A DNA stretch of 64,000 nucleotides from Ruminococcus sp. (GTDB lineage Bacteria; Bacillota; Clostridia; Oscillospirales; Ruminococcaceae): assembly GCF_016287535.1 (NCBI RefSeq), contig NZ_JAEFAJ010000009.1, positions 18,409 through 82,408 on the forward strand, in the 5' to 3' direction. Positions 31,712-52,301 of the stretch are shown piece after piece. The position numbers and the translations under genes are program-made. Within the stretch, counting starts at the first letter, position 1. Every line of letters starts with the position of its first letter. The notes beneath the pieces were generated by a model, which did no database searches, had not been told where the DNA came from, and saw nothing but the letters and a program-made list of their open reading frames with translations.

Positions 31712-31990
31712 AGTAAAGTATTCAAAGGCGATGATGAAGAGGAGTACGCAGGACCCCCGATTTTCAGAGAGCTGCCGGGCGGTGAAAGGCAGTATGACGA
31801 ACCTGCGGAAGTAGCTTCGGAGCTTCGCGTGCCAACGGCTCAGGCTCAGTAGTATGCGGCGTGTTCCTCACGTTACAGGGGAAGAGGTTTTGCGACCTCG
31901 CAGAGTGCGGGAGCATATTCCCGAATTCAGGTGGTAACACGGACAATCGTTCGCCCTGAGCCGACAATGCGGCTTTGGCGGACTTTTTTT
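31712..31990 (+). promoter_or_regulatory. T-box riboswitch, valine specific, upstream of valS
   Basis: The leader starts with GATGAAGAGGAGTACGCAGG, followed by the AGAGAGCTGCCGG and GGTGAAAGGCAG Stem I elements. The specifier region reads GAA-GTA-GCTTCGGAG, placing the GTA (Val) specifier codon at 31810-31812. The T-box proper, AGGTGGTAACACGG, is at 31929-31942, slightly off the usual GGTACCGCG. A GTTCGCC...GGCGGAC terminator with TTTTTTT ends the leader. Uncharged tRNA-Val should stabilise the antiterminator and allow valS transcription. Confidence 0.92.
31947..31990 (+). terminator. Regulated terminator of the valS T-box
   Basis: GTTCGCC with inner GAGCCG pairs with CGGCTTT-GGCGGAC, then TTTTTTT. 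Competes with the antiterminator that contains the T-box sequence. Confidence 0.85.
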
Positions 31991-48949: not shown

Positions 48950-50167
48950 TTATTTAACAATAACTTTTTTAAATGCTTTCTTACCTTTGCGGACTATTAT
49001 ATCACCCTCAAGGCGGATCATTTCCTTGGGATCGGACTTCTTTTCGTCGTTTACAGTGATGCCGCCCTGCTGTACGAGACGTCTTGCCTCGGATACTGAC
49101 GGAGCAAGCTCTGCCTTGACGAGAAGATTGAGAAGTCCTATGGAACCGTCGGTAAGGTCGGCTGGATCTATTTCTGCCACAGGCATATTCTCATCTGAAC
49201 CGCTTCCGCCGAAGAGTGCCTTTGCGGCAGCCTTTGCCTTTTCAGCTTCCTCTTCACCGTGAACGAGCTTTGTGAGCTCATAAGCGAGAAGCTCCTTTGC
49301 CGCGTTGAACTGAGCTCCTTCCATAGTCTTTTCCATTTCCTCTATCTGCTCTACAGGTACGAAGGTGAGCATTTTCAGGCACTTGATAACGTCGGCGTCG
49401 TCAACATTTCTCCAGTACTGGAAGAACTCGTAAGGAGTGGTCTTTTCGGGATCGAGCCATACTGCGCCCTTTTCGGTCTTGCCCATCTTCTTGCCCTCGG
49501 AGTTGAGGAGAAGTGTGATGGTCATAGCGTAAGCGTCCTTGCCAAGCTTTCTTCTTATGAGTTCCGTACCGCCAAGCATATTGCTCCACTGGTCGTCGCC
49601 GCCGAACTGCATATTGCAGCCGTATTTCTGGAATAGCTGGTAGAAGTCGTAGCTCTGCATTATCATGTAGTTGAATTCAAGGAAGGAAAGACCGCGCTCA
49701 AGTCTCTGCTTGTAGCACTCTGCTGTGAGCATACGGTTTACGCTGAAATGTGCGCCGACTTCACGGAGAACTTCTATGTAGTTGAGGTTCATGAGCCAGT
49801 CCGCATTGTTGACAACGATAGCCTTGTCCTCGGAGAAGTCGATAAAGCGGCTCATCTGCTTCTTGAAGCAGTCAACATTGTGCTGTATGGTCTCAGGGGT
49901 CATCATCTTGCGCATATCGGTCTTGCCGGAGGGGTCGCCTATCATGGCTGTGCCGCCGCCGATAAGAACTATAGGCTTGTTGCCTGCCATCTGGAGTCTC
50001 TTCATAAGGCAGAGCGCCATGAAGTGACCTACATGGAGGGAGTCCGCTGTGGGGTCGAAACCGATGTAAAAGGTAGCCTTGCCTGCGTTGACAAGCTCCT
50101 CTATTTCATTTTCGTCTGTGAGCTGCGCGAGGAGACCTCTGCGCTTGAGTTCTTCAAAAGTAGTCAT
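48950..50167 (-). CDS. tyrS: Tyrosyl-tRNA synthetase
   Basis: This 405-residue class I enzyme charges tRNA-Tyr. The HIGH-like motif is [13 protein letters not shown] (about 43), with [17 protein letters not shown] following; the KMSKS-like loop is [14 protein letters not shown] (about 225); an S4 RNA-binding domain ends the protein ([17 protein letters not shown]). It is the last gene after a tyrosine T-box, 14 nt behind a GIY-YIG gene whose stop codon overlaps the AAAGGAG site used by tyrS. No own promoter is visible, so it appears to depend on the T-box transcript ~1.8 kb upstream. Confidence 0.97.
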
Positions 50168-50181
50168 GATTTATTTCTCCT

Positions 50182-51471
50182 TTATAATAATTTGTGTAAG
50201 TTTTTCTTTGTAGCCTCAAGTTGTGTTTTAGATTCTTCACATAATTCGTGACCTTGTAACGAGGCTACAGCGTTTTCCATGGACCTTCCGCCTCCATGGC
50301 AACGATTGCATAAGTATTTTTGTGAAAACGCATTTTTTATTAATTTGAATTCTTTTGATGCTAAGTATTCATCCGCATTTCGCACATTACAAGAGATACC
50401 TAAGAAATTTCTTTTTTTAGGTGTACCGTTTTCATTCAAAACCATTTCCCCAAACTCGGGATGAGGTTCAACAAGTATCCTTGTTGTATCATAAGCGCGA
50501 AAAGAATCAATACTTAGAATAGAGTATTCTGGACTGCCCCATATTAGTTTATCTAAAGGCTTTATGCTTTGCCAATGTGCTTGTATTCTGCCTTTTATAC
50601 CTTGTTTGCATCGAGATATTCCAATATAGAGCTGTTTATACTCATCGAGTATCATTACATATACGCCTGAAATATTTGCATATTTCTTTAAATCATCAAC
50701 AACTTCAAATGTTGGATAGTTAATTAGAAAATTATTTATTTCAGTGTTAAAATCTTTAGAATTTAAGGAATTAAAATATTTTATATTGTTATCAAAGTTT
50801 TTAAGGGCGCGTTCTTGCATTATTTTACATTCTGTATTTGTATAATAAGGTGCTTTCTTTAAAAAATATTCTTTTAACCAATCATCAGGGATATCGAATG
50901 AACTATTTTGTTTAGGGTTTAATTTATACCATTTTTTTAATATATGAGGCATTCTTATCCAAAGTAAATTGTTTTTGTCATAATATTTGATTTTCTCTTT
51001 ATCAAGTTTGAACTGCATGAATTTTTCCTTGATTAGGTCATCACAATTATCGTCGATATTGTCCCTTTTTAATACTTCTTCATATTTTTTTCCGAACAAT
51101 TGCTTCTCAGGATCTTGTGATTCAATGTAAAACATTCTGTTGCTCTCGAATTCTTGGTTAATTCTTTTGATAGTCTCTGTTCTGATGAAACTTTTTAATA
51201 AAGCTTCCTTTTGAGTAGAATCATTTAATTCTTTAATTAGATTTATGTATGAAAGCTTTTCTTTTTTGTATTCATTGAGTTTTATGTTTTTTATTGTATT
51301 CCAATATTTTTCGTTTGCTTCGTCAACACTTAATCCTTTAAAATAAGATTTATTTGAAAAAAATGAATTCTTTCGTGTCACATCATTTATTTCTGCATAA
51401 TTTTCACGAGTAAGCTTAGCATTTTCGGGATTCATGATTCGACAACCAAAGTGTAATTTATATTTTGACAA
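50182..51471 (-). CDS. AT-rich protein with GIY-YIG nuclease-like domain
   Basis: This 429-residue protein has a ~270-residue Lys/Asn/Glu-rich helical N-terminal part without recognisable domain, then a GIY-YIG-like domain (about 275-345): SGVYVMI (GIY), LYIGISRCKQGIKGRIQAHW (YIG with the conserved Arg). A short Cys/His cluster (CNRCHGGG) follows. Base composition is clearly more AT-rich than in its neighbours, suggesting recent transfer. It lies inside the tyrosine T-box unit, 73 nt after a membrane protein gene and 14 nt before tyrS. TTG 51471 is supported by AAGGGAG 8 nt upstream. Role unknown; nuclease activity is inference. Confidence 0.75.
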   Translation of the reverse strand: MSKYKLHFGCRIMNPENAKLTRENYAEINDVTRKNSFFSNKSYFKGLSVDEANEKYWNTIKNIKLNEYKKEKLSYINLIKELNDSTQKEALLKSFIRTETIKRINQEFESNRMFYIESQDPEKQLFGKKYEEVLKRDNIDDNCDDLIKEKFMQFKLDKEKIKYYDKNNLLWIRMPHILKKWYKLNPKQNSSFDIPDDWLKEYFLKKAPYYTNTECKIMQERALKNFDNNIKYFNSLNSKDFNTEINNFLINYPTFEVVDDLKKYANISGVYVMILDEYKQLYIGISRCKQGIKGRIQAHWQSIKPLDKLIWGSPEYSILSIDSFRAYDTTRILVEPHPEFGEMVLNENGTPKKRNFLGISCNVRNADEYLASKEFKLIKNAFSQKYLCNRCHGGGRSMENAVASLQGHELCEESKTQLEATKKNLHKLL

Positions 51472-51544
51472 TCAAATCACTCCCTTATAAGCAATGAAAA
51501 CGTCGGGCGTTTTCATGTATATCACGACCTTTCGGTAATACTGT

Positions 51545-52006
51545 TCAGTCCGCGTGCTTCATTATGGCTTTCAGCAGACCGAGGAAAGCGGAGTGTATAA
51601 AGGTGCGGACGGCAATGAGAGCGTGTCCGCCCATAAAAAAGTATTTAACGTAACCGTAGAAGGTTTCGCCCGGAGCTCCGGCGCTTTTTTCAGAAAGGGC
51701 TGACAGATAGGGCTCAACGGTGCTGTTCCCGAAGGTGACGAACTGCACGAAAAGCGATAGCAGAAGCGCTGTCGTAAAGCAGAGATTGAGCCATGCGCTG
51801 TCAAGACCGGCAAGTCCGGAGACAGGGTGTATATATCTTGTGAACAGGGCTATACCTACTACGGACAGGACTGTACAGACGGTCATGCGTATAAAAGGGG
51901 AGCTGCTGCCTGACTTGGCAGGGCTGATAAAGCCGATGTACAGCATGAGCAGTGAGAACAGAAAGACCGCAAGTCCGAGACTGAGGTAACCTATAGTTCT
52001 TTTCAT
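51545..52006 (-). CDS. Small membrane protein under tyrosine T-box control
   Basis: This 153-residue protein has four predicted membrane segments (YLSLGLAVFLFSLLMLYIGF near 6; MTVCTVLSVVGIALF near 40; LNLCFTTALLLSLFVQF near 72; the last near 120-145). I recognise no family. It begins 16 nt after the terminator of a tyrosine T-box and has an AAAGGA ribosome site; ATG 52006 is the only start outside the leader RNA. Its place as the first gene of a Tyr-regulated unit suggests a link to tyrosine supply or use, but nothing in the sequence shows it. Confidence 0.78.
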   Translation of the reverse strand: MKRTIGYLSLGLAVFLFSLLMLYIGFISPAKSGSSSPFIRMTVCTVLSVVGIALFTRYIHPVSGLAGLDSAWLNLCFTTALLLSLFVQFVTFGNSTVEPYLSALSEKSAGAPGETFYGYVKYFFMGGHALIAVRTFIHSAFLGLLKAIMKHAD

Positions 52007-52021
52007 TGTCCGTCGTCCTTT

Positions 52022-52066
52022 CCAAAATAATAAAAGCCCCCGAACAGCGGAAAACTGTCCGGGGGC
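52022..52066 (-). terminator. Regulated terminator of the tyrosine T-box
   Basis: 12-bp stem GCCCCCGGACAG / CTGTTCGGGGGC (one G-U) followed by TTTTATTATTTT on the minus strand. Confidence 0.9.
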
Positions 52067-52266
52067 GAAGTTACTCGCGGTACCACCCCGATTTGCCGGG
52101 CTGAGCCGACCTTTTGAAGCTGTAACGGGCGCACCCGACCGCACCTACTTCCTTTCAATGCGGCAACTCCCGAATGTAGGTCACTGTACGCCGTCATTCC
52201 CTCACACCTTACGGGAACTCTCTGTATCGGGCACTGCACAGGTTTTATTCGTTCACAGTATTTGTA
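52022..52266 (-). promoter_or_regulatory. T-box riboswitch, tyrosine specific
   Basis: On the minus strand: the Stem I elements ATACAGAGAGTTCCCG and GGTGTGAGGGAA, then GACC-TAC-ATTCGGGAG, where TAC (Tyr) is the specifier codon (52176-52178). The T-box core GGGGTGGTACCGCG is at 52076-52089, near consensus. A GCCCCCGGACAG...CTGTTCGGGGGC terminator with a T-rich tail (52022-52066) follows. Genes downstream: membrane protein (51545), GIY-YIG (50182) and tyrS. Confidence 0.95.
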
Positions 52267-52272
52267 CACTTA

Positions 52273-52301
52273 ATAATAGCATATCTTTTTTTTCTTGTCA
52301 A
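52273..52301 (-). promoter_or_regulatory. Promoter of the tyrosine T-box unit
   Basis: TTGACA (52296-52301), 17-nt spacer, TATTAT (52273-52278) on the minus strand. Confidence 0.85.

Follow-up and report, generated by a model that had tools for sequence, protein, structure and literature searches.

Why does an AT-rich gene with a GIY-YIG nuclease domain stand between a tyrosine-sensing leader and the essential tyrosyl-transfer RNA (tRNA) synthetase gene, tyrS, that lies downstream of it? We examined this question in 64,000 nucleotides (nt) of DNA from Ruminococcus sp. (assembly GCF_016287535.1, contig NZ_JAEFAJ010000009.1, positions 18,409 to 82,408), referred to here as the window. The interval between the T-box leader and tyrS proved to be a variable gene slot, with turnover of cargo between species. 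In the window it is occupied by a uzuA-like gene that follows a conserved element comprising a hairpin and a very short open reading frame (micro-ORF). The unit consists of the following features, given in window coordinates.

52273..52301, minus strand: promoter of the unit (TTGACA, 17 nt, TATTAT, TG extension), matching 11/12 positions in a consensus scan
52058..52265, minus strand: tyrosine T-box leader with specifier codon TAC (Rfam RF00230, 101.5 bits; specifier assigned through an alignment of 72 T-boxes)
52036..52066, minus strand: intrinsic terminator of the T-box, a 13-pair stem and then TTTTATTATT
51545..52006, minus strand: gene for a small membrane protein of 153 amino acids (aa), cargo family F1 (open reading frame, ORF, with three hydrophobic segments)
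51487..51533, minus strand: conserved landmark element (extended Shine-Dalgarno sequence by our reading, hairpin, tyrosine codon)
51494..51516, minus strand: hairpin ATGAAAACG-CCCGA-CGTTTTCAT with the micro-ORF start codon inside (pairing and compensatory changes)
51472..51516, minus strand: micro-ORF MKTPDVFIAYKGVI, tyrosine at codon 10, stop TGA (translation and position)
50182..51471, minus strand: uzuA-like GIY-YIG gene, 429 aa, TTG start, 29% G+C (PADLOC PDLC03975 UzuA, E 1.2e-57)
50177..50183, minus strand: tyrS Shine-Dalgarno sequence AAAGGAG, sharing bases with the uzuA stop codon (sequence)
48950..50167, minus strand: tyrS, tyrosyl-tRNA synthetase (TIGR00234, 429.5 bits; PF00579)

The T-box exceeded the RF00230 gathering score of 93, and its antiterminator core GGGTGGTACCGCG and TAC specifier were both present in the alignment, which bears out the tyrosine specificity proposed in an earlier note made from these letters. 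The note had also placed the leader about 1.8 kb from tyrS, with a membrane gene and an AT-rich GIY-YIG gene between them, and had seen the stop codon of the latter run into the tyrS ribosome site. The distance is 1.87 kb, both genes lie on the same strand, the G+C content is 29% in the uzuA-like gene against 50% in tyrS, and the overlap falls at AAAGGAG as listed. Its view that tyrS has no visible promoter of its own stood in part: on the coding strand from the T-box terminator to tyrS the best promoter-like sites in the consensus scan reached only 9/12, and a weak promoter may exist inside the unit. The scan of the same strand and interval for terminators found a single weak, 5-pair site.

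The surroundings of tyrS were compared across the genus. A tyrS match was obtained in 107 same-genus genomes, and 98 loci were used; nine were omitted where tyrS was split over contigs or sat at the end of a contig, separated from its upstream part. A T-box was found upstream in 72 of the 98, and the 26 loci without a hit comprised 8 with less than 500 base pairs (bp) of upstream sequence and 18 with more, several of which also end at a contig edge. Among the 72, the T-box-to-tyrS interval ranged from 87 to 3940 bp (median 1210). Nine intervals were empty (220 bp or less) and 63 carried cargo, counting L112 as cargo. Cargo orders and families were scored by tblastn, with families counted at 100 aa or more; this gave 23 families and 34 distinct orders, and no antisense cargo hit in the 72 intervals. 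A quick tyrS tree was built from the 69 T-box loci with enough tyrS sequence, which hold 33 of the orders, and at least 43 cargo changes were placed on it, two of them due to uzuA. A conserved ancestral gene order is ruled out by these changes. The comparison with relatives suggested in the earlier note did not find the same order with equal base composition everywhere, because the nearest genome on the tree (G006, locus L040) lacks the AT-rich gene, having a broken F0 gene instead, and a second genome, not a sister of the window's, carries it. The note's idea that the AT-rich gene was captured into the unit held insofar as the insertion is lineage-specific; it is not one odd gene, since the whole interval is a variable slot, and isolated capture of a single gene is ruled out by that variability across the genus.

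The cargo included membrane proteins of unknown kind, epimerase-like, radical SAM and DMP19-like proteins, a dCTP deaminase, GNAT enzymes, a methyltransferase, a zeta-toxin-like kinase (24.9 bits against a cut-off of 22.3) and full-length UvrA. The last is a case of its own: in L052, L054 and L055 a complete uvrA gene lies within a tyrosine T-box unit. The F1 membrane gene of the window was matched in 21/120 same-genus genomes, its own included, one match being a 38%-identical piece with stops. No report of variable tyrS cargo was found in the literature searched, which consisted of open-licence papers.

Other synthetase units of the genus served as controls, examined over 1500 bp upstream in the 30 best-matching loci of 120 (valS) or 40 (thrS, cysS, alaS) genomes. 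Under the same 1500-bp limit, tyrS gave T-boxes in 16/30 loci, 13 with cargo. An ORF of at least 55 aa occurred in the T-box interval at 1/29 valS and 2/26 alaS loci, the alaS ORFs being doubtful at 66 and 79 aa, and at 24/28 thrS and 20/24 cysS loci. The habit of carrying cargo therefore belongs to some synthetase units of the genus. Much of the thrS cargo is, by eye, one recurrent family of about 125 aa, and thrS is therefore, again by eye, less variable than tyrS. In other genera of the family, 28 loci were examined from 52 genomes with a tyrS match; a T-box lay within 1500 bp in 24 of the 28, and 20 of these 24 had no ORF of at least 55 aa before tyrS.

Related arrangements were observed at some of these loci. 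In the window's own genome, L180 and L181 (contigs C3 and C24) are cysS and thrS T-box units with small cargo genes 5' of the synthetase, and the first cysS cargo gene is a member of F8, a family that other species carry as tyrS cargo. The thrS intervals L216, L228, L233, L239 and L240 encode proteins that by eye carry an NGAYFVT-type motif and presumably resemble REP-associated transposases. A second T-box of the window (121.3 bits, 31722-31961, plus strand) lies directly 5' of valS, without cargo.

The protein encoded by the AT-rich gene matched the UzuA model with 193.6 bits. The hallmark of the GIY-YIG superfamily is a G-x-Y ... Y-x-G motif together with conserved Arg, Glu and Asn residues, and the window protein carries this set. 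In 29 aligned sequences, G269, Y271, Y282, G284 and N389 are invariant, and R295 and E374 are kept at 90% or more. Between an N-terminal HFGC/LTRENYA motif and the nuclease domain lie about 200 aa, mostly helix in the structure model, that are missing from short relatives of about 237 aa. Foldseek alone returned no match at E 0.001 or better, and barely covered this helical insert. The AT-rich gene probably encodes a nuclease of anti-phage type, to judge from its family. Uzume reportedly originates with Millman et al. in 2022. Excerpts of PMC10482375 and of PMC12926258 give the mechanism of Uzume as unknown, and an excerpt of PMC11811056 describes Uzume systems in the Bacillus cereus group as mostly plasmid-borne.

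A match to the uzuA family was present in 6/120 same-genus genomes, the window's own included. The gene occupies the tyrS slot twice: in the window and, on a non-sister branch of the tyrS tree, in G054. The G054 copy (E 2.2e-59 to the UzuA model) follows the same hairpin micro-ORF element. Further UzuA-like genes of the genus were located at L061:6217-7506, in L060 with L065, at L062:665-1351 and at L064:6803-7918, and each is AT-rich. They stand in sense beside housekeeping genes, in the rplT-trmH interval of two genomes and as the last gene of a spermidine operon, or by themselves. No record of the phage collection matched the uzuA-like protein, and four plasmid records matched its GIY-YIG part alone (26-29% of the query, 45-47% identity).

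The 47-nt element upstream of uzuA consists of an extended Shine-Dalgarno sequence by our reading, a 9-bp hairpin that encloses a start codon, and a short ORF. It was found in 42/98 tyrS intervals, and a search of the window's own genome that allowed up to 3 mismatches located it at a single place. Tyrosine stands at codon 10 in 42/42 elements (40 TAT, 2 TAC; a partial second copy in L119 was left out), a count that was partly selected because the search profile had been seeded with sequence including that codon. A structural scan that did not use the tyrosine codon recovered the element in 37/72 tyrS intervals, against 2.6 hits in shuffled tyrS intervals, and in 0/29 valS, 1/26 alaS, 0/28 thrS and 1/24 cysS intervals. 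Of the nine empty tyrS loci, six have it.

A degenerate pattern without tyrS sequence was also run against one genome each for 84,980 species. It returned 39 stretches, 34 of them titled Ruminococcus; tyrS lay downstream on the stretch in 34/39, and three more were on contigs inferred to be ones already seen with tyrS. The remaining stretches were L329, which ends at a contig edge, and L316, the last of the 39. The element recurred 5' of tyrS in R. flavefaciens FD-1, 007c, ATCC 19208, Y1 and YAD2003 and in other strain records. A scan against Rfam gave a meaningful match to the T-box alone, and no report of a hairpin micro-ORF was found in the open-licence papers searched.

The hairpin stem shows compensatory change. 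On 29 distinct sequences 95.4% of stem cells were paired, 23 cells had a double change against 8.8 in shuffles that ignore the relatedness of the sequences, and covariation was 0.328 against 0.184. RNA folding of the element region gave no convincing alternative fold downstream. In a fold of the empty locus L056, pairing of the micro-ORF Shine-Dalgarno sequence with the tyrS start region was considered and rejected, as by eye it fails where GGAC replaces GGTC. In two loci the element has unusual company. L119 (G032) contains a full element, then a zeta-like gene, and then half of a second element, from which cargo F22 takes its start. A 258-aa ORF 5' of tyrS in L349, from another genus, starts with VVSVRSAFDFITY and there closely resembles the micro-ORF peptide.

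In the window the micro-ORF and uzuA share a reading frame, and the TGA stop of the former abuts the TTG start of the latter (51469-51474, minus strand); in G054 a 4-nt gap separates stop and start. Where cargo follows the element directly, an exact 4-nt overlap of stop and start occurred in 8-11/21 cases, depending on the start-choice rule (11 when ties were broken toward closeness, 8-9 under neutral rules), against 3/42 in the other frames. Coupling is likely, although not proven, for several cargo types, namely the zeta-like kinase, F0, the DMP19-like proteins and small ORFs; across loci, micro-ORF-to-cargo coupling is suggestive only.

On this evidence we lean towards accepting that the slot of the window holds a likely anti-phage UzuA-like gene, which is predicted to be co-transcribed with tyrS in response to uncharged tRNA-Tyr and is likely translated through coupling to the micro-ORF. 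Co-transcription is proposed because other strong signals are absent. Antitermination at the T-box would give one messenger RNA for the membrane gene, the micro-ORF, uzuA and tyrS, and the nuclease would presumably be induced by tyrosine starvation. Since tyrS keeps its own ribosome site, it would tolerate cargo, and sense-strand cargo alone would persist, since other insertions would leave an essential gene cut off. The micro-ORF is presumably translated: ribosomes would enter at its Shine-Dalgarno sequence, melt the start-codon hairpin and move on to uzuA. The uzuA ribosome site, AAGGGAG, lies immediately 3' of the micro-ORF tyrosine codon, and this position suggests ribosome stalling as a brake on uzuA in a severe shortage. 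Under a true lack of charged Tyr-tRNA, a ribosome stalled at codon 10 would cover that site, lowering uzuA while tyrS is made; the tyrosine codon could in this way oppose the starvation induction of uzuA at the level of translation, and nuclease output might be best as tRNA charging recovers. Protection against phage is what membership in the UzuA family would predict.

A fuller version of this proposal is possible, and we hold it tentatively. It treats T-box transcription and the single-tyrosine hairpin micro-ORF as a two-layer tyrosine gate forming a plug-in slot, which would offer cargo a tyrosine-gated promoter for free, damped at translation. An inserted uzuA or zeta-toxin-like kinase would then be governed by tyrosine and linked to an essential gene, swappable yet not easily deleted.

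Besides the limits given above for the codon count and the shuffles, several observations weigh against these proposals. The match to the UzuA model is confined to positions 88-264 of 277, leaving positions 1-87 outside the matched stretch. The element was not found in 56/98 tyrS intervals, some of them cut by contig edges. Of the five covariation measures, the two that count pairs with a double change and further pair types did not rise above shuffles, and folding of the window's element region did not outperform shuffles (z -0.28 and -1.27), with -2.0 at one empty locus. A stop-start distance of 8 nt or less occurred in 11-14/21 cases (14 with ties broken toward closeness, 11-12 under neutral rules) against 13-15/42 in the other frames. 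The exact overlaps come from four cargo types and from related loci, and where tyrS directly follows the element coupling is rare (2/21). Finally, L128, L129 and L131 link cargo to tyrS in clades where a T-box was not found, and cargo therefore does not need the T-box.

The main rival explanation is that genes arrive by chance behind a strong promoter and ahead of an essential gene, and survive only when inserted in sense and clear of the tyrS ribosome site, the T-box and tyrosine codon being irrelevant to them. The lack of antisense hits fits this account, as do the ending of cargo near the tyrS start in many loci, the Pfam labels of cargo families, which are unrelated to tyrosine, the persistence of cargo where the T-box was not found, and a coupling to the micro-ORF that is suggestive only. 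However, the valS and alaS intervals of the same genus stay empty, and T-box and tyrS lie close together in most other genera of the family; the slot is therefore not a general by-product. A hairpin micro-ORF with compensatory change, specific to tyrS intervals, likewise speaks against chance parking as a complete account, and we judge this explanation somewhat improbable. Less probable again, and second among the rivals, is the view that the GIY-YIG gene encodes a selfish, free-standing endonuclease of the homing type, lodged beside conserved housekeeping genes and without a part in defence. Its AT-rich relatives are indeed scattered (between rplT and trmH, at the end of a spermidine operon, alone) and few genomes of the genus carry one, but among curated families it matches the defence family UzuA best, unrelated genes fill the same slot, and no record of the phage collection matched.

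The element itself might be a recombination site for the entry of cassettes instead of a leader peptide. Cargo is found on either side of it, and in L119 a half copy beside the full one forms the start of cargo F22. Yet each interval has one full copy, six of the nine empty loci have the element without any cargo, and the Shine-Dalgarno-like sequence and tyrosine codon are kept with synonymous change only. A Pfam scan of 20 cargo representatives returned no recombinase, and the genomes were not searched for one. We regard this alternative as distinctly unlikely. An assembly chimera or contamination could be suspected from the 6.4% contamination estimated for the genome bin and from the AT-richness of the GIY-YIG gene. 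It is very improbable given the second UzuA copy behind the same element in G054 and the recurrence of the element before tyrS in the R. flavefaciens strain records, and an assembly artefact was rejected on the latter ground.

If the preferred reading, a tyrosine-responsive slot that holds a uzuA-like gene, is true, rumen bacteria express exchangeable genes from a slot within a riboswitch-controlled essential operon, and a defence-type nuclease is tied to a tRNA-charging signal. A very well studied gene would also gain a new conserved leader element, the hairpin micro-ORF with its tyrosine codon.

The locus can be set beside four known systems. Like T-box operons (RF00230) such as that of Bacillus subtilis tyrS, it has a TAC specifier, an antiterminator core, a terminator and a leader 5' of tyrS; the genus differs in the highly variable, unrelated genes between leader and tyrS and in the extra hairpin micro-ORF. 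T-boxes that precede genes of unknown function are described in PMC2494555. With Uzume the window protein shares the C-terminal GIY-YIG domain, which matches the PADLOC model (E 1.2e-57), whereas model positions 1-87 have no counterpart in the match and a mostly helical stretch of about 200 aa precedes the nuclease domain. In ribosome-mediated attenuation, as at trp, his and erm, leader peptides carry regulatory codons. The micro-ORF resembles them in its shortness, in having a dedicated ribosome site and in keeping a codon for the amino acid in question constant, but that codon is a single tyrosine, the hairpin lies over a start codon and is not a terminator, and a T-box is already present upstream. 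Integrons and defence islands hold exchangeable cargo at a fixed chromosomal place. The tyrS slot likewise swaps its cargo at a fixed place; it differs from them in having no recombinase among the scanned cargo and in being embedded in an essential gene's transcription unit.

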